This document shows, one piece after another, positions 7,525 through 61,784 of a stretch of DNA of 64,000 nucleotides. Location of the stretch: assembly GCF_000025225.2 (NCBI RefSeq), contig NC_013895.2, forward strand, positions 248,001-312,000, in the 5' to 3' direction. This DNA is from Mageeibacillus indolicus UPII9-5 (GTDB lineage: Bacteria; Bacillota; Clostridia; Saccharofermentanales; Fastidiosipilaceae). Position 1 is the first letter of the stretch. Every line of letters begins with the position of its first letter. The translations under genes and the position numbers were made by a program. The notes under the pieces were generated by a model, which was not told the DNA's origin, did not search any database, and saw only the letters and a list, made by a program, of their open reading frames with translations.

Positions 7525-9064
<1,540 letters not shown>

Positions 9065-9171
9065 TATGTTGAATAACGATTCAACAGAGTTCAGGTCGAT
9101 CATCGCAAGATGACAATTGTTTTTGCTAACTCACTATTCAATCTCCAGGGTCTGTACCCTCTTGTTCACAA

Positions 9172-9248
9172 GGGCTCATAGCTCAGCTGGTTAGAGCGTA
9201 CGCCTGATAAGCGTAAGGTCGATGGTTCGAGTCCATTTGAGCCCACCA
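9172..9248 (+). tRNA. tRNA-Ile (anticodon GAT)
   Basis: A 77-nt cloverleaf. The acceptor GGGCTCA pairs with TGAGCCC, the D arm is AGCTC...GAGC, the anticodon GAT lies at 9206-9208, and the T arm contains GGTTCGAGTCC. CCA is encoded. It is the only tRNA in the 16S-23S spacer; the tRNA-Ala that often accompanies it is absent. Confidence 0.97.
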
Positions 9249-9452
9249 ACTTTCCAGTTAGTGAACAGCGCAAGCCGCGATGTACCTTGAAAACTGCATA
9301 AGAAATAATGACTGAGTAAAAGACATAATGAAGTAAAAAATGGTCTTGCAAATTCAGCAAAAGTACTAAAGTACAAGTTGAAGCGAGTCTGAGGAACTTC
9401 ATTCATAAGTGTCTGGAACGACGGAAAAAAGAAAAACTTTGAGAACCAATAA

Positions 9453-12348
<2,896 letters not shown>

Positions 12349-12438
12349 ACAAGCACGTTGGTTCAACGTTGAACCAGACAGAATGAAGACTCAGACAACT
12401 CAGTAGCTTATGCAGTCTTGAGGGTACAACCTCAACAA

Positions 12439-12556
12439 TTCCGGTGGTGATAGCGGAGAGGCCACACCTGTTCCCATTCCGAACACAGTAGTTAAGCTCT
12501 CTAGTGCCGAAGATACTTAGCTGGTAACGGCTTGGTAAAATAGGAAGCTGCCGGAT
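12439..12556 (+). rRNA. rrf: 5S ribosomal RNA
   Basis: About 117 nt with the conserved CCATTCCGAACACAG stretch and terminal pairing (TTCCGGTGG near the start, GCTGCCGGA at the end). It lies 90 bp after 23S and 6 bp before tRNA-Asn. Confidence 0.95.
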
Positions 12557-45894: not shown

Positions 45895-45953
45895 GTTTAG
45901 CCGCAATTGTGGTAACATGAATTGAAGGAAAATATGCATTTATGGAGGTTAAC

Positions 45954-46526
45954 ATGGCGGCATTAAATGATTTTTCAACGTTTGATTTATATAGTGATGA
46001 TTCGTTAATTTTTATTATAGATGAGCAGGAAAAACTGGTTCCGGCGTTGCTCAACGGTCAGGCGGCAGTCGAGCGAACAGCTTTACTTTTGCAGGCGGCG
46101 GCCGAATTACAAATTCCGGTAATTAAAACGGAACAATATCCCAAGGGCCTAGGCGAAACGGTCGAGCCGATCAAAAGTCTGTGTGCAAAGGTTGATACTG
46201 CCTGTTATGAGAAACTGGATTTTAATGCGATCAGCAATGAGATCCGCACCAAGTTGCGGCTGAGTGGTCGCCAAAGGATCTTGATTACCGGTGGCGAGGC
46301 TCATATTTGCGTTTTACAAACAGTGCGTGCGTTGCTCAAGCAAGGGTATTTCGTTTTTGTGGCGGCGGATGCCATCGCTTCACGTCACCAGTTCGATTAT
46401 GACATTGCTTTAAAGCAGATGAGAGATATGGGAGCTGTAATAACTACTACTGAAACCGTCATTTATGATTGGCTCAAACAGGCAGGTACCCCAGCCTTTA
46501 AGCATCTGGTTAAATTAATCAAATGA
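45954..46526 (+). CDS. Isochorismatase-family cysteine hydrolase
   Basis: A 190-residue protein with the isochorismatase/nicotinamidase fold. The catalytic set is Asp23 (FIIDEQEKL), Lys87 (CYEKLDF) and Cys119 (GGEAHICVLQT), all present. The start at 45954 has GGAGG 5 bp upstream; the in-frame ATG at 45942 lies within that site. The usual aromatic/Zn ligands of true nicotinamidases (DxH) are not evident, so the substrate is probably another amide or an isochorismate-like ether. Its stop codon overlaps the next start by ATGA. The nearby chorismate mutase raises a link to chorismate metabolism, which is only inference. Confidence 0.88.
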   Translation: MAALNDFSTFDLYSDDSLIFIIDEQEKLVPALLNGQAAVERTALLLQAAAELQIPVIKTEQYPKGLGETVEPIKSLCAKVDTACYEKLDFNAISNEIRTKLRLSGRQRILITGGEAHICVLQTVRALLKQGYFVFVAADAIASRHQFDYDIALKQMRDMGAVITTTETVIYDWLKQAGTPAFKHLVKLIK

Positions 46527-49363
46527 GAAGTGGAGGACAAGCTGCCAAACCTGCCGGGGCCGCCGGGGCCGTCGGGGCTGCCAAAGCCGCCGGGGCTGCC
46601 GGGGGGGATGATTTTGCCGCGCCGGCTGATATGTCCGGTGTTTTCGGCGTTTCCAGGGTACCGGAAAGCCGTGACGCAAGTAAACTCCCGCGTTCGGCTG
46701 ACCTTGGCCGAGTCGATTTGCTTAACGGTGCAAATAAACTTGGTTTTACAAACAATAAGGCGGCGGTTTCACAAGGGGCGCAAGGACTGCGAGATGCGCA
46801 AGCGGGGCAGGACGGTAAAGGTGGTAAATGGTCACAAAGTGAGATAACGGTGCAGGCGGATAATGCCGTTCGCCCTTTACGCTTAAATACAAACGGACCT
46901 TTAGTGCGGGTGGGGGCTATACCATGGCAGATTGCTGTCGACCGAGCCGAGTGGGTTGTCAGCCGTTTGCGTCGCGCCGGCTTACCTTTTCATTTGACTC
47001 AGGTGCCGGTGTCAGGTTTCGATCGGCACAGCATAATCAACAAAGAAGATTACTACGCTTCGCCTGCGCAAGTGGAGAAAGTATTTGACGCCCTACTGAA
47101 TCGGCAGATAGAAATCGGCGTTATTGCTTTGCCGGAACTGCCGCAAAAACTGCCGGCAGGAATCCGTGTGGCGGCGATCAGTGAAGTGGTAGCGGCCGAA
47201 TACGCCCTCGTTTCGCTGTCTGATCACCCGGCCGGAGAACACGATTTCATCGGTGTATATAGTTTTTCCCTGGCGCGGCAGTTACGCAGCGAAAAACTTG
47301 GCGCACATTACGAACAAAGACCGTATAATTTTGAACAAGCCTTAACGTGCTTACATGAAGGCGTTTGGGGTGCTTGCGCGATCCCGCTTGCCGACCTGAT
47401 ATTTGATGGCTGTTCCTCTGAATATTCCGTAGAAGTGTTGTCTAAACAGCGGGTCGTACCACCGGCCGGGCAAGGAGCGGTGGCGGTTTTGGTCAGCGAC
47501 TGTGAAGACGAATTGGCGGCTGCTGTTTTTTCGTTTCTCCATAATGTCGAAACGGAAAAAATTTATCGTCTGGAAATTGAAATAGCTAACCTAGTGTCAG
47601 ACCGCAAAGAACGCGCTGGAAGTTGCATTTGGTCGGAAAACAATACGTACTTTATGTCACTTTACAATCCGCGGCTGGAACGGCCGTTTCAACGCTGGCT
47701 TTGCAAGCCGATCAGTGAGCCGGGAAAACGAATTAATAAGCAGCTGTGCTACAGTATTTTGCACGGTGTTACCGGCAATGTCCATTTGATTGGGATCGGT
47801 TCAGGGGCGCCAAAACAGTTAACCATAGAAGCAGAATATCTGTTGCGGCGAACGGACTTGGTTATTTGCCGTTCCCCCCAGGCAGAACAGCTGTTTTATT
47901 TGTTGCCGGTAAAAGCGAGCATTTTGGATATTGATTCTGACGCAAGACTGGAACAAATGGATTTTTTGCTGGAGCAAATAATTGATGCTTGGCGCAAAGG
48001 TTTGAAAATCGCCGTGCTTATCCGGGGGGATGGCTATCTGCTTTCCTGTGGCGGAGTTTTGGCTAAAAGCCTGATTGAGCGGCGTGTACCTTTTCAACTT
48101 ACGCCGGGAATTTCAATCAGCATAAGCGGCCCGTCTTTGGCCGGAGTACCGCTTATCTTCCCCGGGAGGTCGCCGCACGCGCATTTGTACGATGGTAGTG
48201 ATCCAATGTTGTCGACTTACCGTTTTGATATGACGGCCGGGCGACAGGGAACTTTGCTTTTTTATATCGTTCCATCACAAGGCAGATATATTGCATCTTT
48301 ATTAATGCGTCAGGGCTTTTCCGCGCATACGGCAGTGATGTTTTTGGCAAGGCCGGGGCATCCTGAGCAAGGCTGTGTCGTCTCAACTTTGGCAATGCTG
48401 GAACATGCTTTATCCGTCCCCGCAAATGAGCAGCCCGGCTTGTTGATTGTCGGTGAAATTGTTCGCTCGCACGAGGTTATGGATCGCACCGACAGCGGTT
48501 ACAAACCTTTGCTTGGTAAAAGTGTGCTTATCCCGAGCATAGACAACAGCGATGAACGTGAATTCGCGTGGCAAAGGGAATGGGAAGAACAGGGGGCGCA
48601 TATTATTAAACTGCGGTTGAGTGCCGTGTTGGTGGACGAGGATAACAAAGCTGTACTTCGCGATCTGTTCGACCAAATTTTGCGTGGCGACCTGTGTTTG
48701 CCGAGTGTAATAAAAGTCCCGGCGACTAAGCATAAGGAACGGTTGTTTGAACGTGACCGACATAAAAACGAGCCTGAACAGCTGAACATCACCCCGGTGT
48801 GGCTGGCCTTTTTAAGCTCCGATGCAGTTACAACTTTTTTTGACGAGTACCTAGCATCCGGACACGATATGCGCCAACTCAGCGGTTGCGCTTTTGCCGC
48901 GCCTAACGATGAAGTGTATCGTACTTTGAGTGAGGTCGGAATACAGGCGGATTATACGGCGCCCGGTCAGACGGCCGAAGACTTGGCCGGCGATATGCAA
49001 CGTTTCCTTACCTCGCAAGATCAGATTCTAGTTTTCCGGGGGGCGGAAGACAGCGAAATGATGGAAATAATGCTGAATATGGCTAAATTTCGCGTGCGAG
49101 GCGTGGCGATATATCATCGGCAGAACAGTTTGCCGCCGGCCGACCGTTTGTTACGGTTGTTTGATGAAGCGGAATACATAGCTTTTGCGACTGTGGCGGT
49201 GGTTAATCCGTTCGCCTATGCCATGGCGGCGGCTAAATTGGGGCATGACGCACTGCGTAATCGACCGATCAGACTTTTGGCGGCCGATGCCGACGTACAA
49301 GAAGCTTTGCTGGATCGCGGCTTTCAGGTGCATGGCAGTTTCGGCTATTTGGCTGATTTGTGA
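46523..49363 (+). CDS. Three-domain tetrapyrrole-enzyme-like fusion: HemC-like, CobA/SUMT-like, HemD-like
   Basis: A 946-residue protein. Residues 1-115 are low complexity, including an Ala/Gly run from a 9-bp DNA repeat. Residues ~118-390 match porphobilinogen deaminase by layout (start LVRVGAIPWQIAVDRA, end PAGQGAVAVLV and the cofactor-like Cys in GSCIW), but the HSxKDxP catalytic motif is ALPELP, and the arginine motifs GTSSLRR and RGNVxTR are not conserved. Residues ~412-645 resemble uroporphyrinogen-III/precorrin methyltransferases (LIGIGSGAPKQLT, IRGDGYLLSCGG, TPGISISISGPSLAGVPL, ending LIVGEIV). Residues ~665-946 resemble uroporphyrinogen-III synthase. No other heme or cobalamin genes are nearby. 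Start by ATGA coupling with the upstream gene, with no Shine-Dalgarno of its own. Activity is doubtful. Confidence 0.7.
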   Translation: MRSGGQAAKPAGAAGAVGAAKAAGAAGGDDFAAPADMSGVFGVSRVPESRDASKLPRSADLGRVDLLNGANKLGFTNNKAAVSQGAQGLRDAQAGQDGKGGKWSQSEITVQADNAVRPLRLNTNGPLVRVGAIPWQIAVDRAEWVVSRLRRAGLPFHLTQVPVSGFDRHSIINKEDYYASPAQVEKVFDALLNRQIEIGVIALPELPQKLPAGIRVAAISEVVAAEYALVSLSDHPAGEHDFIGVYSFSLARQLRSEKLGAHYEQRPYNFEQALTCLHEGVWGACAIPLADLIFDGCSSEYSVEVLSKQRVVPPAGQGAVAVLVSDCEDELAAAVFSFLHNVETEKIYRLEIEIANLVSDRKERAGSCIWSENNTYFMSLYNPRLERPFQRWLCKPISEPGKRINKQLCYSILHGVTGNVHLIGIGSGAPKQLTIEAEYLLRRTDLVICRSPQAEQLFYLLPVKASILDIDSDARLEQMDFLLEQIIDAWRKGLKIAVLIRGDGYLLSCGGVLAKSLIERRVPFQLTPGISISISGPSLAGVPLIFPGRSPHAHLYDGSDPMLSTYRFDMTAGRQGTLLFYIVPSQGRYIASLLMRQGFSAHTAVMFLARPGHPEQGCVVSTLAMLEHALSVPANEQPGLLIVGEIVRSHEVMDRTDSGYKPLLGKSVLIPSIDNSDEREFAWQREWEEQGAHIIKLRLSAVLVDEDNKAVLRDLFDQILRGDLCLPSVIKVPATKHKERLFERDRHKNEPEQLNITPVWLAFLSSDAVTTFFDEYLASGHDMRQLSGCAFAAPNDEVYRTLSEVGIQADYTAPGQTAEDLAGDMQRFLTSQDQILVFRGAEDSEMMEIMLNMAKFRVRGVAIYHRQNSLPPADRLLRLFDEAEYIAFATVAVVNPFAYAMAAAKLGHDALRNRPIRLLAADADVQEALLDRGFQVHGSFGYLADL
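46553..46606. repeat. 9-bp tandem repeat (GCCGGGGCC), six copies
   Basis: Six nearly identical 9-bp units with phase-neutral length encode AGA-AGA-VGA-AKA-AGA-AGG near the N-terminus of the HemC-CobA-HemD-like protein. Gain or loss of a unit would keep the frame and change three residues. The same DNA in the third frame would encode a collagen-like PGPPGP pattern, but that frame is not a real gene. Confidence 0.8.
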
Positions 49364-49415
49364 GCCGTAGGACAGTAAAACCAAGTCTGACATGCGGAGA
49401 GGTGAGAAGGTAAAA

Positions 49416-50024
49416 ATGCGAAACGAACTTGATACGAGCGACATGGAGAAGCAGCCTGATTTGCCGGAAATGCCCGGGCTGCCTTTTTGGCGCAAACAGC
49501 TGGACGAGATTGATCTATCTTTGCGTGAACTTTTGGCCCAACGCAGAGCCATCACCTCAAATATAGGTCGCTATAAAGCCGCCCGCGGGCTAAAAGTTTA
49601 TGATCCTGAGCGCGAAAAAATCATCCTTGACACATTGCAAGCTGCTGATCCGCTTATAGCTAAATTATGGCCATATTTACTTACCTTTTCACGAGCAGGA
49701 CAATATGATATAATAGAAAAAATTAATACAATAAATAGAGATTCTTCGGCCTGTAGCGAAGCGAATTTTTGTGGTGAATATCAGATTTGTTTCTATACAT
49801 GCAACTGTAGGCAAACTCTCACAAAAATTCTTGAATGGATGCATGTTCTCGGTTTGATGCCGACTGAGTTGAAGGTTGAACGAAAAAACCAAATGCCGCC
49901 GGATGCGGCCAAAATTACGTTTAACCTGCATAGCGTCGCACAAAAAAGCGGCGTTCAAGTGTTTCAGCGAGTAATGCACGAAGAATTATCAAGGGAGGTA
50001 CTATGCTTAATATTCAAGCGGTGA
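49416..50024 (+). CDS. Chorismate mutase (AroQ type II) with a C-terminal extension
   Basis: A 202-residue protein starting at 49416 (GAGAAGG upstream; an ATG at 49392 precedes that site). Residues ~16-90 are the helical AroQ domain: WRKQLDEIDLSLRELLAQRRAITSNIGRYKAARGLKVYDPEREKIIL, with the key Arg, Lys and Glu/Asp positions of the active site. It converts chorismate to prephenate. The remaining ~110 residues do not match prephenate dehydratase or dehydrogenase; they contain alternating strands (QICFYTCNC..., AAKITFNLHSV) and might be an ACT-like or other regulatory domain. Its last 22 bp overlap the ABC ATPase gene. Confidence 0.85.
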   Translation: MRNELDTSDMEKQPDLPEMPGLPFWRKQLDEIDLSLRELLAQRRAITSNIGRYKAARGLKVYDPEREKIILDTLQAADPLIAKLWPYLLTFSRAGQYDIIEKINTINRDSSACSEANFCGEYQICFYTCNCRQTLTKILEWMHVLGLMPTELKVERKNQMPPDAAKITFNLHSVAQKSGVQVFQRVMHEELSREVLCLIFKR

Positions 50025-52778: not shown

Positions 52779-53102
52779 GTGAATAAAGAAATTTTTGCCG
52801 CCTTGCAGGCCATTGAAGACGAAGCGGAACAGCTTGTTGAGCAGGCTCGCCACGAAGTAGACACGATCAAGACTGATACAGAATCGGCTAAACGGAAACT
52901 GAAGGAAGCCGCGGAACTTAAGATCGCAGCTTTAAGGCAAGAAACTGAAAAAACTATCGCCGTGATGCGTACGGAATGGCGGAAACGCGCCGCACAAGAC
53001 TTGACTGAGGCAGAAAAAGCACTGACTGAACAGGCCGAACAGCATTATGCGGCCGCGGTTGATATAGTGGTTAAGGAGTGTTTGACTCATGGGCATCGTT
53101 AA
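52779..53102 (+). CDS. ntpF: V-type ATPase peripheral stalk subunit G/H-like
   Basis: A 107-residue, highly charged coiled-coil protein, starting at GTG with an AGGAGGAG site. Heptad-like patterns (LVEQARHEV...AKRKLKEAAELKIAALRQ) run through nearly all its length. In the Enterococcus hirae ntp operon the first gene, ntpF, codes for the equivalent peripheral-stalk partner of subunit E (also called G or H), and its place before ntpI here supports that name. The gene overlaps ntpI by 14 bp. Confidence 0.82.
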   Translation: MNKEIFAALQAIEDEAEQLVEQARHEVDTIKTDTESAKRKLKEAAELKIAALRQETEKTIAVMRTEWRKRAAQDLTEAEKALTEQAEQHYAAAVDIVVKECLTHGHR

Positions 53103-55125
53103 GATGAAACGACTCACTTTGGTGGGCCCGTTAAGCACCAAACCAGCTGTTTTAAACACGTTGAGCAAGCTTGGCGCGGTAGATATTCGTGACAATGCCG
53201 AAAAAGCGGAAGTTTGGCAGGCCAAAGTCGGCCGGGAAAACGCGCATTATCGAAAAATGCTGGAAGATAAGCAACTGCTGGACAGCGTCATACCTATAGC
53301 TGATAAATTGGCGGCGCAGAAGAAACCGATGTTTGCCGCAAAGCGATCCGTTTCGATTCAACAATTCATGCGGTATGACAGCGGCGAGCTTCGTACGAAA
53401 GTTTTGAGTGCAGCCAGAGAATTGCAGGGCAACCGGCAAAAATATGAAGAAGCTCTAGCTGAAAAAGCACAAGCAAGCCTGCAACGTGATATTCTGTTGC
53501 CTTGGCAGGAAGCTTTGGGCGACAGTGAGGTCGACGATACACGGCGCATTCGCACTTGGCTCGGTCATGTGAGCAATATGATTCAGTATGAAAACTTGGT
53601 CAAGGCGTTGGCTGAGGTGAATCCTACTGCCGTAGTTAAAGTCTTACTTAACAAAGATGTTAAGTCGGTCGCGTATCTTGTTTTGGCGGCTCCGGCGGTT
53701 GACGGTGAGCTAGCGTTCGTTCAGGCACAGCAATACGGATTTCAACCTTTGCGCCAAAAGGCTGCCAAGTTGTCGCCACAAGAAGAACTGGGACATTGTG
53801 AGCGCAAGTTGCGTGAATTGGACGAGGAATTAGCCATCTTACAGGAAGAAGGTCGCCGCTTAAGCTCGGAAAAAGCCTGCTTTGAAGAACTGAGCGATTA
53901 TTTTGCCGTCCAGATCGAAAAAGTTAAAGCAGATGAACATATCTTGAGCTCAGAACGACTGTTTGTAATTCAGGGCTACATTCCTGAACATCTGGCCAAG
54001 GGAACGAAGAAAGGTTTGGAAGAAACCTACTGCGTTTCTGTTATGCTGGAAGATGTTACCAAGTCGGATGAATATCCTATCTTGCTCAGTAACGGTAAGT
54101 TCAGCAGCCCCTATGAAGCTGTTATCGACATGTTCAGCTTACCTAACGCATCCGAGGTTGATCCAACACCTACGGTTGCACCGTTCTACTGCATTTTCTT
54201 TGGTATGATGTTCAGCGATGTCGCTTACGGGATTATTTTTTGCTTGATTACGGCATTGTTGGTATACAAATTCAAGGTACAGGGCGGTTTGCGCAAAATG
54301 TGCCAGATGTTCTTTCAGTGCGGCCTGTCGTCGATTGTCTGGGGCGTGTTATTCGGCGGTTTCTTCGGCAACCTGATCGACGCATTTTCCGGTGCGAGCG
54401 TTAAATTCCCCGCGCTCTGGTTTAATCCTATGGATGACCCGATGAAGATGATGATCTGGTCGGTGATTTTCGGTGTCCTCCATATATTTGTTGGCATGGG
54501 TGTAAAAGTGAAGATATTGGCGGCGACCGGCAAACTTAAAGAGGCACTGCTTGATGTTGTCCCCTGGTACTTGATTATCGGCGGCTTAGGCGTTTTCGCC
54601 TACGGAGTTGCCGGCGGAGCCCCTGTGTTAAAAACAGTCGGCTTATATGTACTGATCGTAGGTGCGGCCGTTGTCCTGCTCTTCGCCGGACGTTCGACGC
54701 GCAACCCGATTTTGCGTATATTGAAAGGCGTTGGAGCGTTATATGATATAACTTCTTACTTCAGCGACATTATGTCTTATACTCGGATTCTGGCCTTGTG
54801 CCTTTCCACCTCAGTTATAGCTATGGTGGTTAACTTGCTGGCTCTGCTGCCCGGAAAAAATGTGCTGGGACTGATTTTCTTTGTGGTAATTGCCGTTTTG
54901 GGTCACACCTTAAACTTTGCTCTTTCAGCACTGAGTGCTTATGTTCACACTACACGGTTGCATTACGTTGAATTTTTCGGCAAGTTCTATGAAGGCGGTG
55001 GTCGGGCGTTCGATCCTTTGGCCTACCGTACCAAGTACGTGCAGATTGACCGCGCGGAGGCTGAGCCAAAGCCGATCAAAGAAAGCTTAAAACATCGTTT
55101 CGCTCGTTTTATCACGGCGGAATAG
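53089..55125 (+). CDS. ntpI: V-type ATPase subunit I (a subunit)
   Basis: The 678-residue membrane subunit that forms the ion half-channels against the K ring. The N-terminal ~330 residues are cytoplasmic with coiled coils (elongated arm), while the C-terminal half has 7-8 TM helices, including PTPTVAPFYCIFFGMMFSDVAYGII and the ion-channel helices with YTRILALCLSTSVIAMVVNLLA, where the essential Arg of subunit a is seen as YTRIL (~564). The start is at 53089, overlapping the upstream gene by 14 bp; a second in-frame Met (MKRLTL) lies 5 codons later. Confidence 0.95.
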   Translation: MGIVKMKRLTLVGPLSTKPAVLNTLSKLGAVDIRDNAEKAEVWQAKVGRENAHYRKMLEDKQLLDSVIPIADKLAAQKKPMFAAKRSVSIQQFMRYDSGELRTKVLSAARELQGNRQKYEEALAEKAQASLQRDILLPWQEALGDSEVDDTRRIRTWLGHVSNMIQYENLVKALAEVNPTAVVKVLLNKDVKSVAYLVLAAPAVDGELAFVQAQQYGFQPLRQKAAKLSPQEELGHCERKLRELDEELAILQEEGRRLSSEKACFEELSDYFAVQIEKVKADEHILSSERLFVIQGYIPEHLAKGTKKGLEETYCVSVMLEDVTKSDEYPILLSNGKFSSPYEAVIDMFSLPNASEVDPTPTVAPFYCIFFGMMFSDVAYGIIFCLITALLVYKFKVQGGLRKMCQMFFQCGLSSIVWGVLFGGFFGNLIDAFSGASVKFPALWFNPMDDPMKMMIWSVIFGVLHIFVGMGVKVKILAATGKLKEALLDVVPWYLIIGGLGVFAYGVAGGAPVLKTVGLYVLIVGAAVVLLFAGRSTRNPILRILKGVGALYDITSYFSDIMSYTRILALCLSTSVIAMVVNLLALLPGKNVLGLIFFVVIAVLGHTLNFALSALSAYVHTTRLHYVEFFGKFYEGGGRAFDPLAYRTKYVQIDRAEAEPKPIKESLKHRFARFITAE

Positions 55126-55216
55126 GAACAAATTTATTATTTAAACCGTAACCCACGGGAGAATAAATCTCAAAGGGATAATAAGATAATTTTAGTTCGA
55201 CAAGGAGGACTTTAAA

Positions 55217-55717
55217 GTGACATTCGCAGATTATATCTCACAGGTATTCACCGGCCCCAGCATTGCTCTGATGGCCACAACGCTGACTGCAGCCGTTTCG
55301 GGTTGGGGTTCTGCCAAGGGGGTAGGTGCAGTCGGTACTGTGGTTGCCGGTTCACTGACAGAAGATCCGAGCAAGTTCGGTAAGCTGCTTATTTTACAGG
55401 CGTTGCCGGGCACCCAAGGTATTTATGGACTGATTACGTGGTTCGTGTTTATGATTATGAGCGGATTTATGAGCGGCGCACCGAAAGATTTGACTTTTGC
55501 TCAAGGCTGGATGATCGCGGCTGCTTGTATGCCGATGATGATTGTCGGTTTCTTCTCTGCCGTACACCAAGGCCGCGTGGCTGCCGCCGGTTGTTCATTA
55601 GTCGGCAAACGTCCGGAAGAACAATCTAAAGCTATAGTTCTGGCAGCTATGGTTGAAACATACGCTATCTTTGCGCTGTTGGTATCTGTTTTGACTATCA
55701 TCTTTGTTGTGAGGTAA
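55217..55717 (+). CDS. ntpK: V-type ATPase subunit K (ring proteolipid), Na+-binding type
   Basis: A 166-residue protein with four TM helices in two hairpins, starting at GTG behind AAGGAGG. In E. hirae NtpK the sodium ion is held by Leu61, Thr64, Gln65, Gln110 and Glu139; the aligned residues here are Leu63, Thr66, Gln67 (in ALPGTQGIYG), Gln118 (VHQGRVAAAG) and Glu147 (AAMVETYAIF), with the capping Tyr70 also kept. All ligands are therefore conserved, which argues for Na+ rather than H+ transport. Confidence 0.95.
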   Translation: MTFADYISQVFTGPSIALMATTLTAAVSGWGSAKGVGAVGTVVAGSLTEDPSKFGKLLILQALPGTQGIYGLITWFVFMIMSGFMSGAPKDLTFAQGWMIAAACMPMMIVGFFSAVHQGRVAAAGCSLVGKRPEEQSKAIVLAAMVETYAIFALLVSVLTIIFVVR

Positions 55718-55722
55718 AAATA

Positions 55723-56325
55723 GTGGAAGGTTTAGAGAGGATCCATCAGCAGATCTGTCAAGAGGCTGAAACTGAGGCTGCTGCTATCCGCGAGGCTGCC
55801 TTACAAAGCCAAGCGGCCGCCCTGCGTGAGGCTCAGGCTCAAGCGGATGAACTCTACGAAAACGCTTTAGCGGAGAGCCGCGCCAAACAGCAACGAGCCG
55901 AATCACAGCTGCGCGCTGAATTGAATATGACAGAACGGCGGACTTTGCTTGGCACCAAGCAGATGTGGATACATAAGGTTTTTGCAGCTGCATTAAAGCA
56001 ATTGGCTGCACGGGAAGAATCCGTCAAAATCGCAGATTATTTGACTATGCTTGAAAATCCGGATTTCCTGAGCGAGTGCCGCGCGAATGCGAACGTTGTT
56101 CCGGTTATCGAGCTAGCGGCGAACGATGCGGCATTGCTTCCAGCCTTGCGGGCCGAGCTGCCTTTCAAGGCGGAGATCAAAGCTGATCGTAAAGATTTTA
56201 CTGCCGGCCTTACTGTTACGGTGGGTCAAGTACATTTTAATTACACTTATGAGGAAGATATGCGCCGGCGCGAGGCCGAGTTTATCGGAACAGTCGGAGC
56301 GAAGCTCTTTCCCGGAAAGGATTGA
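55723..56325 (+). CDS. ntpE: V-type ATPase subunit E (peripheral stalk)
   Basis: A 200-residue protein from a GTG start. The N-terminal ~90 residues are an Ala/Glu/Gln-rich coiled coil, and the C-terminal ~100 form the globular head that binds the catalytic B subunit. It pairs with the G/H-like coiled coil of the first gene. It begins 5 bp after ntpK and ends 5 bp before the ntpC ATG. Confidence 0.9.
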   Translation: MEGLERIHQQICQEAETEAAAIREAALQSQAAALREAQAQADELYENALAESRAKQQRAESQLRAELNMTERRTLLGTKQMWIHKVFAAALKQLAAREESVKIADYLTMLENPDFLSECRANANVVPVIELAANDAALLPALRAELPFKAEIKADRKDFTAGLTVTVGQVHFNYTYEEDMRRREAEFIGTVGAKLFPGKD

Positions 56326-56330
56326 AAATA

Positions 56331-57515
56331 ATGCGCTATTCAGATCAACGCTGGCCGGTGGGTGGCGATGATGTGGCATACGGACAGAGTACCGGAAGGC
56401 TGCGCATACTGGAAACTCGGTTGCTGGCGGCGGTGGAACTGGAAACGGCAATCCGCCAAGGCGATAATGCGACGTGGAAACAGCTGCTTGATCGTTTGGA
56501 CTATCCTGCCGGAGCTGATTTGCTACAGCGAGTAAATAAAGCCGGGGAAGCTGCCGACGCGCTTTTGGTCGAGCTGAGCATGGATAAAGTTTTGAGCTAT
56601 GGACTTTTACTGTATCAGCCGTACCACAATTTAAAAGTGTTCCTAAAAGCACTTTTACCGTCCGACGGGCAGTCTGTAAAAGCTGCTTGGCATGACGAAA
56701 AGAACGACGCGATTCCCGAGCATTTAAAAGAGCTGCTATACTTTAACGCTTCTGAAAATATAGAAACTTGCAGAAAATTAGTGGTCGAAACTTTAGTCCA
56801 AACGGATGAGCGTCCGGTTGATCCGGCCGATTATAACAGCTTTTCCGATGAGTTCATCGGCATGGATGAGCTCAGGGCAGATTCTTTTATCCGTACGCAT
56901 GTACCTGAAATTTTTAAACATGCTGTTCTGGCCGCTGCCAGATCCTATGCCGCCGTATCGGAGGTAGGACAGATAGACGCCGTTTTGGACAAGTTTTATT
57001 TTGCCCATCTAGCGGCCTTGGCTAATCGGAGCCGCCAGGCTTTTTTGCGGGTCTATGCCGAACTCAAGGCTGATATAGCCAACATGAATATTTTATACCG
57101 TTCGGTCAAGCTTAAATTGGAAGCTACTAAGGTAAGTGAGCTATGGGTGCCGGGTGGACAAATTAAAAACGGGGAGGCTCTGACCAAATTGTTGCGTGAA
57201 GACGCAGCTGCTTGGCGGAAGGCCTGGTCTGCCACTCCGGTAAATGAAATAGCGGCTATAGCTTTTGCGGCTTCGCACTCGAATGGCGGCGAGGTTGTCC
57301 CTCCGGGAACGTTTGCTAAGGCGGCGGACGACATGGTCATGGATTTGGCGCGGACCGGTTTAAAAGTTGTCTACGGCCCGCAAGTCGTTGCCGGGTATTG
57401 GCTGGCGAAACAGGCAGAAATACGAAATCTGCGCTTACTGTTTTCTTTGAGAGCACAGGGCAAAGATCGCGAAGCTTTACTTGGACTGATGCGGGAGGTG
57501 TATATCCATGGATAA
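56331..57515 (+). CDS. ntpC: V-type ATPase subunit C/d (central stalk-to-ring connector)
   Basis: A 394-residue cytoplasmic protein with largely alpha-helical character that links the central stalk to the K ring. I use the ATG at 56331 (MRYSDQRW) with GGAAAGG ~10 bp upstream; the TTG at 56322 overlaps the ntpE stop. Features: YGQSTGRLRILETRLL at the start, and the repeated helical domain pattern ILYRSVKLKLEA... toward the end. It overlaps the next gene by 8 bp. Confidence 0.92.
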   Translation: MRYSDQRWPVGGDDVAYGQSTGRLRILETRLLAAVELETAIRQGDNATWKQLLDRLDYPAGADLLQRVNKAGEAADALLVELSMDKVLSYGLLLYQPYHNLKVFLKALLPSDGQSVKAAWHDEKNDAIPEHLKELLYFNASENIETCRKLVVETLVQTDERPVDPADYNSFSDEFIGMDELRADSFIRTHVPEIFKHAVLAAARSYAAVSEVGQIDAVLDKFYFAHLAALANRSRQAFLRVYAELKADIANMNILYRSVKLKLEATKVSELWVPGGQIKNGEALTKLLREDAAAWRKAWSATPVNEIAAIAFAASHSNGGEVVPPGTFAKAADDMVMDLARTGLKVVYGPQVVAGYWLAKQAEIRNLRLLFSLRAQGKDREALLGLMREVYIHG

Positions 57516-57849
57516 GAATGTGCGCAAGATTGCCGTGGTCGGTGATCCGGCAACTGTCCTTGGTTTCCGCGGCTTAGGTTTTGAGACGTGGCCGGCCAAT
57601 CCCGGTGAAGAGGTGCTTACCGTCCTGAAAAAGCTAGTGGAGAATGATGAATACGGGATTATATACATAACCAACCATTTGGCTGAAGATGCAGCACCGT
57701 ATTTAGCTGAAATCAGTCGCAGAACTTTGCCGGCCGTTATTCCGATTTCAATGGGGCCGCCGGCCGCCGCTTTGGGGCAGTTGGCACTGAATGACGCGGT
57801 ACGTCGGGCGGTAGGTTTCGATATTTTAGCCAATAAAGAGGAACAATAA
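57508..57849 (+). CDS. ntpG: V-type ATPase subunit F (central stalk)
   Basis: A 113-residue Rossmann-like central-stalk subunit. It begins with KIAVVGDPATVLGFRGLGFE, the family motif, and continues with GIIYITNHLAEDAAPYL and LPAVIPIS. It regulates coupling between A3B3 and the rotor. In E. hirae nomenclature it is NtpG. The AGGTGT site and the 8-bp overlap with ntpC support the start. Gap to subunit A is 33 bp. Confidence 0.92.
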   Translation: MDKNVRKIAVVGDPATVLGFRGLGFETWPANPGEEVLTVLKKLVENDEYGIIYITNHLAEDAAPYLAEISRRTLPAVIPISMGPPAAALGQLALNDAVRRAVGFDILANKEEQ

Positions 57850-57882
57850 GCTGAGCATGGCTCAGATGAATAGGAGTTAAAG

Positions 57883-59664
57883 ATGAAACAGGTCAGTCAG
57901 GGAACTATTTTAAAAGTATCCGGCCCCCTTGTAGTGGCTTCCGGGATGCGAGATGTACAAATGTTTGATGTTGTGCGGGTTTCCTCGAATCACCTTATCG
58001 GTGAGGTAATTGAAATTCATGGCGACAAAGCCTCAATTCAAGTGTATGAGGAAACGGCCGGTTTAGGGCCGGGGGAGCCGGTTGTATCAGCCGGTGAGCC
58101 ACTGTCTATGGAACTGGGGCCGGGCTTGATCGGTAACATGTTTGATGGTATCGGCCGTCCTTTAGAGCGGATGCGCAAATTGAGTGGCGACAACATTCAA
58201 CGGGGAGTGCAGATCCCGAGCTTAGATCGAGAAAAAGTTTGGCATTTTGCGGCCGTAGCTAAGGTCGGTGACCAAGTCTCAGCCGGCGATATTTTGGGTG
58301 AAGTACAGGAAACTAGCCTGATTAAGCATAAAATTATGGTTCCGCCTTTCCATAAGGGCGAGATAATTAAAATATCTGACGGCGATTTTAAGGTCGATGA
58401 TGTCGTAGCAGTGCTGAAAACTGCTGAAGGGAAAGAAGAAAACGTAACTCTTTATCATACTTGGCCGGTCAGACGAGGGCGGCCGTACAAAGCCAAAATC
58501 GCCCCGGAACGCCCATTGATCACCGGGCAACGTGTGGTTGACACTTTCTTCCCTCTGGCCAAAGGTGGTACGGCTGCAGTCCCTGGCCCTTTCGGCAGCG
58601 GCAAAACGGTTATTCAGCATCAGCTGGCTAAGTGGGCGGAAGCGGATGTCGTTGTTTATATAGGTTGTGGCGAACGAGGCAATGAGATGACGGATGTTTT
58701 GATGGAATTCCCGGAATTGATTGATCCGAAAACCGGCAAGTCACTCATGGAGCGCACGATTTTGATTGCCAATACGTCCGATATGCCGGTCGCAGCCCGT
58801 GAAGCTTCGATATACACAGGTATAACGATTGCTGAGTATTTCCGCGATATGGGTTATTCGGTATCCATCATGGCCGATTCCACTTCTAGATGGGCTGAAG
58901 CTCTACGTGAGATGTCCGGCCGTTTGGAAGAAATGCCGGGTGAAGAAGGCTATCCGGCTTACCTAGGTTCACGCTTGGCACAGTTCTATGAACGTGCCGG
59001 AGAAGTGAGCTGCCTTTGCTCGGAAGGCGAGGAGCGGCGTGGCGTTTTGACTGCCATAGGAGCGGTTTCCCCGCCGGGTGGAGATATGTCCGATCCGGTC
59101 GTGCAATCCACCTTACGAATTGTCAAGGTTTTCTGGCAGCTTGATTCGGCTTTGGCTTACAAACGACATTTCCCGGCTATCAACTGGCTGAATTCTTATT
59201 CGCTTTATGCCGATACGATAGATGAATGGATGAACGGTAATGTAGATCCGGCTTGGGCCAAAAAGCGCGCGGCAGCGATAAAACTGTTGCAGGAAGAAGC
59301 CGAGTTGGAGGAAATTGTTAAGCTGGTCGGTTTGGATGCGTTGTCAGCGGGCGACCGTGTGAAACTAGAAGCTTCAAGGTCATTGCGCGAAGATTTCTTG
59401 CACCAAAACAGCTTTGATGAAATAGATACATATTCCTCCTTGAATAAGCAAAAATATATGTTGTCGATTATCATGGAATATTATGAGCAGGCCACCCGCG
59501 CTGTCGCGGAAGGCGCGAAGATCCATGAAGTAACCGGGCTTAAGGTTATGGAAGGAATCGGCCGTCTGAAATATGTTCGTGAAGATGAAGTAGAAACCAC
59601 TTATCAAAAATTGGCGTATGAACTGACGGCTGAACTGGACGAAGTGCGCAATCAAAACGTGTAA
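57883..59664 (+). CDS. ntpA: V-type ATPase catalytic subunit A
   Basis: The 593-residue ATP-hydrolysing subunit, identical in length to E. hirae NtpA. Walker A is GPFGSGKT at 235-242; the catalytic Glu region follows in [15 protein letters not shown] (Glu near 261). The nonhomologous region insertion (about 115-185) that marks A subunits over F1-beta is present, with [53 protein letters not shown] is near-invariant. The start has AGGAGT 7 bp upstream. Confidence 0.98.
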
Positions 59665-59674
59665 GAGGTGTGAG

Positions 59675-61066
59675 ATGGCAAAAGAATATCAAACAATAGA
59701 AGAAGTAGCTGGTCCGTTGATGTTGGTGCGGAAGGTACAAGATGTAAAATACTATGAAATGGGTGAAATCGAACTGCCGAACGGTGAGTTGCGTCGGTGC
59801 CGGGTGCTTGAGATAAACGGCGAAAATGCTTTGGTGCAACTGTTTGAGAATTCGGTAGGAATTAACATTCAGGACAGTAAGGTGCGTTTTTTGGGGCACG
59901 GCTTGGAACTGCCGGTTTCGGAAGATATGCTGGGCCGGGTTTTTGACGGAATGGGGCATCCGGCCGACGGCGGACCGGAGCTTATTCCGGAAGCTCGCAT
60001 GGATGTTAACGGTTTGCCGCTGAACCCGACGGCGCGTGACTACCCGGATGAGTTTATTCAAACCGGGGTTTCGGCGATTGATGGGCTGAACACATTGGTG
60101 CGTGGTCAGAAGTTACCTATTTTTTCCGCTTCCGGTCTGCCGCATTCGCAGCTGGGCGCACAGATTGCGAGACAGGCGAAAGTTATTGGTGACAAAGAGC
60201 AAAAGTTTGCCGTTGTCTTTGCGGCCATGGGTATTACTTTTGAAGAGGCCGACTACTTTATTAAGGACTTTCAGCGTACCGGAGCGATTGATCGTACGGT
60301 ATTATTCATTAACTTGGCTGACCAACCGGCGATTGAACGCATAGCGACGCCGCGTATGGCACTTACTTGTGCTGAATATCTGGCCTTTAAGAAGGATATG
60401 CATGTATTGGTAATTATGACCGACATCACCTACTATGCCGAGGCTTTGCGTGAGGTTTCCGCAGCTCGTAAGGAGGTCCCCGGACGCCGCGGCTATCCCG
60501 GTTATCTGTACACCGACTTGGCGACAATGTATGAACGGGCCGGGCGAGTAAAAGGCAAAAAAGGATCAATAACGATGGTGCCGATTTTAACCATGCCGGA
60601 TGAGGACAAAACTCACCCAATTCCTGATTTGACCGGTTATATTACTGAAGGCCAGATTATTTTGAGCCGAGAACTGTACAAAAAAGGGTTGCGGCCGCCG
60701 GTGGATGTTTTGCCATCTCTGTCTCGTCTAAAAGATAAAGGTATCGGTGAGGGCAAGACGCGAGAAGACCATGCGGGGACGATGAATCAGTTATTTGCAG
60801 CATATTCACGCGGCAAAGATGCACGTGAGCTGGCGGTTATCCTGGGTGAATCTTCGTTGTCGGAAATGGATCGTCTGTATGCGCGTTTCGCGACTGAATT
60901 TGAAGAAAAATATGTTTCACAAGGCTTTGATACTAATCGCAGCATCGAGGAAACGCTAGATTTAGGATGGAAGTTGTTGGGAATCTTACCGCGATCAGAG
61001 TTGAAACGGATTAAAGAAAGTATTCTAGATAAATACTATGTTCCGGCTGACCCGATGAAACATTAA
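59675..61066 (+). CDS. ntpB: V-type ATPase regulatory subunit B
   Basis: The 463-residue non-catalytic nucleotide-site subunit. Instead of a Walker A it shows the B-type [15 protein letters not shown] loop, followed by [43 protein letters not shown] and the [18 protein letters not shown]-terminal region. It alternates with A in the A3B3 head. Ten bp after ntpA; AAGAGGTG site. Confidence 0.98.
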
Positions 61067-61079
61067 TTGGAGGTGTGCT

Positions 61080-61784
61080 ATGGCAAAAGCAGCGGTAAGT
61101 CCGAATCGGATGGAGCTGATGCGATTAAAAAAGGAGCTGAATACAGCGCGTCGCGGCCATAAGATGCTCAAAGACAAGCGGGACGAATTGATGCGTCAGT
61201 TCATGGATATTATTCGTGACAATCAGCGGTTGCGTAAAGAAGTGGATGTTCGTTTGAACAAAGCCTCGGAAGGCATGGCTTTAGCAGCAGCGGTAATGTC
61301 GCCAGAAACCTTGCAGGAAGCTTTGTTGCTTAGTCAGGAAAAGCGTACGGTTGATGTAGGTGAGAAAGCAATCATGGGGGTGCATGTTCCTCAGTTTGAA
61401 CTTTCAGATCAGCAAATAACCAATACCGGTTTGGCCTATGGTTTAGCACAAACAACTGAAGATTTGGATCAGACGGTGGATGAGTTGGTAGCTGCTGTTC
61501 CGGATTTGTTGGAATTGGCGCAAGTCGAAAAAACGGTGCAAATGTTGGCCAGCGAAATTGAAAAGACGCGGCGGCGAGTAAATTCTTTGGAATATGTTAT
61601 GATTCCTGCTTTGGAGCGGCAAATTCATTCGATAATCATGAAAATGGAAGAAAATGAGCGCGGCAATTTGACACGTTTGATGAAGGTTAAGGATATGATT
61701 ATCCAGCGAGAGATTTTAGCTAGGCGGGAAGCTGACGCTCAGGTGGCTTCGGAGTGCTCAGGAGGATCTGCATCGACGAATTGA
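61080..61784 (+). CDS. ntpD: V-type ATPase subunit D (central rotor shaft)
   Basis: A 234-residue coiled-coil shaft subunit. The N-terminal helix begins VSPNRMELMRLKKELNTARRGHKMLKDKRDELMRQF, the conserved antiparallel pair. The C-terminal helix carries RRRVNSLEYVMIPALERQIHSIIMKMEENERGNLTRLMKVKDMI, both family signatures. It is last in the operon, and a strong terminator follows 30 bp after the stop. Confidence 0.97.
   Translation: MAKAAVSPNRMELMRLKKELNTARRGHKMLKDKRDELMRQFMDIIRDNQRLRKEVDVRLNKASEGMALAAAVMSPETLQEALLLSQEKRTVDVGEKAIMGVHVPQFELSDQQITNTGLAYGLAQTTEDLDQTVDELVAAVPDLLELAQVEKTVQMLASEIEKTRRRVNSLEYVMIPALERQIHSIIMKMEENERGNLTRLMKVKDMIIQREILARREADAQVASECSGGSASTN

Follow-up and report, generated by a model that had tools for sequence, protein, structure and literature searches.

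A degenerate HemC-CobA-HemD fusion protein, probably retained as a pseudoenzyme, in one family of Clostridia

A single chain of 946 residues, encoded in the window (the whole 64,000-nucleotide stretch of DNA that was analyzed), carries HemC-, SUMT- and HemD-like domains in pathway order. To judge by its sequence and those of its relatives, this degenerate HemC-CobA-HemD protein (dHCD) is probably a paralogue of the clostridial fusion that no longer makes tetrapyrroles and survives as a folded binding or scaffold protein without catalytic activity: a pseudoenzyme. The domain order had already been noted in a reading made from the sequence alone, and the open reading frame and Pfam agree: the frame runs unbroken from an ATG at 46523 (the start codon is uncertain) through 946 codons to a stop that ends at 49363. 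Its parts are the following:

46523-49363, + strand: dHCD, 946 residues (open reading frame, Pfam, alignment)
46523-46903, + strand: N-terminal extension, residues 1-127, with an Ala/Gly-rich start and ending in AVRPL (residues 115-119)
46904-47512, + strand: porphobilinogen-deaminase-like domains 1-2, residues 128-330 (PF01379, 67.6 bits)
47126-47143, + strand: ALPELP, residues 202-207, replacing the HemC motif SxKDxP (MAFFT alignment, HMM)
47618-47632, + strand: GSCIW, residues 366-370, its Cys368 not aligned with the cofactor Cys242 (alignment)
47780-48397, + strand: SUMT-like (tetrapyrrole methylase) domain, residues 420-625 (PF00590, 64.1 bits)
47792-47812, + strand: GIGSGAP, an altered SAM-site motif, residues 424-430 (alignment)
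48707-49249, + strand: uroporphyrinogen-III-synthase-like (HemD) domain, residues 729-909 (PF02602, 61.1 bits)

Pfam places Porphobil_deam, TP_methylase and HEM4 on the chain from N- to C-terminus with E-values of 1e-16 to 1e-18, so that the match is not due to chance; with all three domains above the Pfam cut-offs, a chance or frameshifted reading frame is ruled out. The NCBIfam equivalogs score far under their cut-offs (cobA_cysG_Cterm, 78.9 against 185; hemC, 23.3 against 164). AlphaFold, run on three sequences, returned a mean pLDDT of 36, a model too poor for any structural claim.

Joining these three enzymes is in itself ordinary; it is the degenerate form that is the oddity. Intact single-chain HemC-CobA-HemD proteins of ~800-840 residues are frequent in the order and across Clostridia, and the HSxKD, RGN, cofactor-Cys, GGDP and GK-A-H motifs are present in the full-length examples that were checked. 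Two such fusions (L063:4081-6615 in genome G006 and L064:3932-6454 in G033) share with dHCD the three domains in the same order on one chain; dHCD differs from them in lacking the catalytic and cofactor residues, in having its N-terminal extension and in having no adjoining HemB. An N-terminal segment, AVRPxxL/GVRSxxL, is common to dHCD and four divergent relatives and absent from the intact fusions. A search of the accessible literature for such a degenerate fusion, or for a HemC pseudoenzyme, turned up nothing direct.

Nor is dHCD the oddity of one genome. The survey of orthologues and genome context that the sequence-only reading had proposed identifies the degenerate form as a family-wide paralogue in six genomes of one family (G000, which is the window's own, G003, G006, G007, G010 and G011) and finds it nowhere else among 188 genomes of the order. 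Contig ends truncate the G003 and G006 copies, and the two pieces in G006 are taken as one gene. G000 is a single contig of 1,809,746 bases, scored 99.99% complete; the relatives are mostly draft genomes, so that an individual absence, or the presence of two copies in G006, may stem from a bin that is incomplete or mixed. Searching genome contigs with the window protein gave no matches, and with the G010 protein two already-known MAGs alone; in viral contigs, one contig matched the CobA part. In G010 a further fragment of dHCD, with a broken frame, follows immediately after the first at a contig end (L060:6643-7122); it is either a tandem duplicate or an assembly artefact.

In HemC the cofactor is attached at Cys242, catalysis depends on Asp84, and Arg149 plays an important part in elongating the chain (PMC8561815). 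Set against the E. coli enzyme (1AH5, 1GTK), domains 1 and 2 of dHCD are recognizable and, by alignment, retain the equivalents of Asp46 and Ser129, but the chain-binding Lys59 and Lys83 and the catalytic Asp84 have become Ser180, Pro204 and Glu205, and Arg131 and the likewise chain-binding Arg149 and Arg155 have become Ser249, Pro267 and Ala273. That HSxKDxP now reads ALPELP, with Glu for Asp84, and that the substrate-binding Arg motifs are not kept had been read from the sequence alone; MAFFT and a separate HMM of intact HemC (which sets ALPELP opposite HSlKDlp) concur on both counts. A profile alignment might have restored the key Asp and Arg residues; HMMs of intact HemC and SUMT confirm the losses instead. 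Ser13, Lys59, Lys83, Arg149, Asn151 and Cys242 are lost in all six divergent copies and kept in eight intact proteins from the order; the dipyrromethane anchor and the porphobilinogen-binding residues have disappeared from the whole clade. At position 84, four of the divergent copies have Asp and two, those of the window and of G006, have Glu. The one earlier claim about HemC that does not hold up concerns the Cys of GSCIW, taken to be the surviving cofactor Cys. This is probably wrong: the cofactor loop is deleted in the window's copy, leaving a gap at Cys242, and Cys368 sits on the strand after it (a placement that carries some gap ambiguity, the HMM alignment ending at residue 354), while at the cofactor position the other five copies show A, A, D, E and F. 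The C-terminal domain of HemC (PF03900) was found in four intact proteins and in no divergent protein tested.

The SUMT-like domain matches SUMT (1S4D; CysG, 1PJQ) over its whole length (E-value 9e-19 to 1S4D), but the catalytic positions Asp248 and Lys270 (CysG numbering) are replaced by Arg450 and Ser472. MAFFT and the intact-SUMT HMM bear out the earlier observation that GxGxGD reads GIGSGAP here: the GxGxG glycines are kept (GIGSG), and the second SAM motif is RGDG, as against GGDP in four relatives; in the G006 copy it is ADNI. Lys270, Gln279, Arg309 and Met382, catalytic or substrate residues of SUMT, are gone from all six divergent copies and kept in the eight intact proteins (the HMM agrees); Asp248 persists in every divergent copy except the window's.

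Does the methylase domain still work on something else? It has been retargeted, this explanation would say, to SAM-dependent methylation of another substrate, and the domains that resemble HemC and HemD would serve as binding modules. The copies in G003, G007, G010 and G011 lend it some color, since they keep GAGPG, Asp248 and GGDP and reach TP_methylase scores (~146-158 bits) equal to those of intact proteins; in these four relatives, with their good SAM motif, a retargeted methyltransferase is possible. As an account of dHCD it is nonetheless unlikely, given the universal loss of Lys270, Gln279, Arg309 and Met382 and the eroded SAM motif of the window and G006 copies. On the pseudoenzyme reading, SAM would be the likeliest retained ligand in the same four relatives, because GGDP is kept there (the window's motif being RGDG).

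HemD has few diagnostic catalytic residues. The HemD domain of dHCD, above the cut-off for PF02602, is ~17-25% identical to those of the intact copies, and its Asp782, Arg784, Tyr864 and Phe888 are invariant across divergent and intact copies alike. More generally, 71 positions are invariant in five divergent copies, and 38 of these, many of them glycines, are also conserved in intact copies, which argues that the fold is probably kept.

Selection can be gauged in two pairs of close relatives. By domain, dN/dS is 0.047-0.057 for G007/G011 and 0.077-0.144 for G010/G003, comparable to the values for neighboring genes (0.058-0.20), with the N-terminal extension looser (0.24-0.37); dHCD is thus no pseudogene in those relatives. 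Nothing closely related to the window's copy turned up in the collections, and the selection values are therefore those of the relatives. One could suppose, then, that a protein functional in the relatives is a pseudogene in the making in the window's genome: its copy forms the longest branch (2.4) in a tree of 15 sequences and keeps the fewest of the positions that are invariant in intact proteins (43 of 112). We regard such a decaying remnant as quite improbable, because the frame is intact over 946 codons and every domain has a coding-type base composition, whereas simulated drift (100 runs) introduced stops on average by 97% identity and left no stop-free frame at 80% identity or below; by that model, a frame of this length at ~25% identity would have gathered dozens of stops. 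Where the sequence-only reading had offered "vestigial, regulatory or retargeted", the first term is disfavored by a stop-free frame and by dN/dS of 0.05-0.14 in the relatives, and the other two would be the better reading.

The genomes that carry dHCD mostly lack the means to supply HemC with substrate. HemA (PF05201) and HemB (PF00490) were not found in G000, G003, G007, G010 or G011 by single-family searches whose controls were positive, and CobO and B12-binding domains were not found in G000 or G007. The only other TP_methylase in G000 is a 331-residue frame, RsmI-like by the naming used in this analysis. The pathway survives in G006 alone, where HemB, HemL-like and CbiA-like genes follow the intact fusion (L063). 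Clade-wide residue loss and the missing substrate supply in five of the six carriers give good sequence support to the earlier suggestion that ordinary siroheme/uroporphyrinogen activity has been lost. An active trifunctional enzyme, its active sites arranged in an unusual way and its porphobilinogen or uroporphyrinogen imported, would explain why all three domains persist in pathway order with Asp46 and Ser129 equivalents and a Cys near the cofactor loop, but is highly improbable in view of the missing Lys59, Lys83 and Arg149, the absence of a cofactor Cys from the other five members, and a window genome without HemA, HemB, downstream methylase or B12-binding protein.

The surroundings of dHCD are, as had been noted, outside any heme or B12 locus; they hold ABC genes and two immediate neighbors, the first listed as a neighbor with no claim about function:

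45942-46526, + strand: isochorismatase-family hydrolase, overlapping the dHCD start by 4 nt (PF00857, 103.5 bits)
49392-50024, + strand: chorismate-mutase-like protein, 210 residues, 28 nt downstream of dHCD (PF01817, 53.1 bits)

The AroQ match of the latter covers residues 33-84 only; the C-terminal rest matches nothing in Pfam and, by eye, resembles ACT. A functional link between it and dHCD is rejected, the pairing not being conserved in relatives. In G005, a protein of the prephenate-dehydratase/ACT type whose start is chorismate-mutase-like (L116:4748-6615) adjoins an isochorismatase-family gene, near a degenerate CbiA; that isochorismatase-family gene is 40% identical to the window's, whose own pair (45942-50024) flanks dHCD. 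Two other candidate partners were set aside: 1) a peptidase-T-like M20 gene, upstream in G003, G007 and G011 only; 2) corrinoid handling through CobO, which is the gene immediately upstream of dHCD in two carriers (G003 and G010), sits on the downstream contig in G006 and at another place in G011, and is absent, like B12-binding domains, from G000 and G007. No gene neighbor is common to all six carriers. Elsewhere the window holds a complete rRNA operon (7527-12556) and a V-type ATPase operon (53089-61784) with subunits I, A and B among its products.

Where did dHCD come from? In the 15-sequence tree the divergent copies and the intact G006 copy group together with 100% support, but monophyly of the former has only 58%. 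In G006 a degenerate CbiA comes after the divergent copy, and an intact CbiA comes two genes after the intact copy; this parallel placement suggests, though it does not prove, duplication of an operon with joint decay of its catalytic sites. The degenerate CbiA-like genes are these:

L062:1999-3465, in G006, beside dHCD
L114:9207-10697, in G001
L115:564-2090, in G004
L116:9399-11003, in G005
L117:8754-10154, in G008

All five proteins lack the P-loop (GMDKDDGQN or similar as against GTGSGCGKTT) and the glutaminase Cys (AESES, AEGAG, AEDSG, ADSEA and AQDQA as against AECGG). Beside dHCD in G006, the degenerate CbiA otherwise occurs in family members without dHCD. A YtxH-like gene lies near it in three genera (L062:7465-8497, L114:8095-9176 and L115:2243-2692), followed in G006 and G001 by a second small gene. 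It is conceivable, if rather doubtful, that a duplicated tetrapyrrole operon became a non-catalytic module in this family, represented by degenerate HemC-CobA-HemD in certain members, by degenerate CbiA in others and by the two together in one, and that selection kept the module after the pathway was lost.

The pseudoenzyme reading would run as follows: an old duplicate of HemC-CobA-HemD lost its uroporphyrinogen/precorrin-2 chemistry, and a ligand or a partner protein may now occupy the clefts of its three domains, in a role as sensor or scaffold. Clade-wide residue loss, the absence of HemA and HemB from five of six carriers, low dN/dS, the intact frame and the grouping within one family are consistent with it; the length of the window's branch, the modest support for monophyly and the want of a shared neighbor weigh against it. 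If it is right, annotating dHCD as a HemC, CobA or HemD enzyme is an error that ascribes to these anaerobes a synthesis of uroporphyrinogen or siroheme, and dHCD would be a three-enzyme fusion converted in its entirety into a conserved pseudoenzyme, in which one could test what such folds do after their pathway has disappeared.
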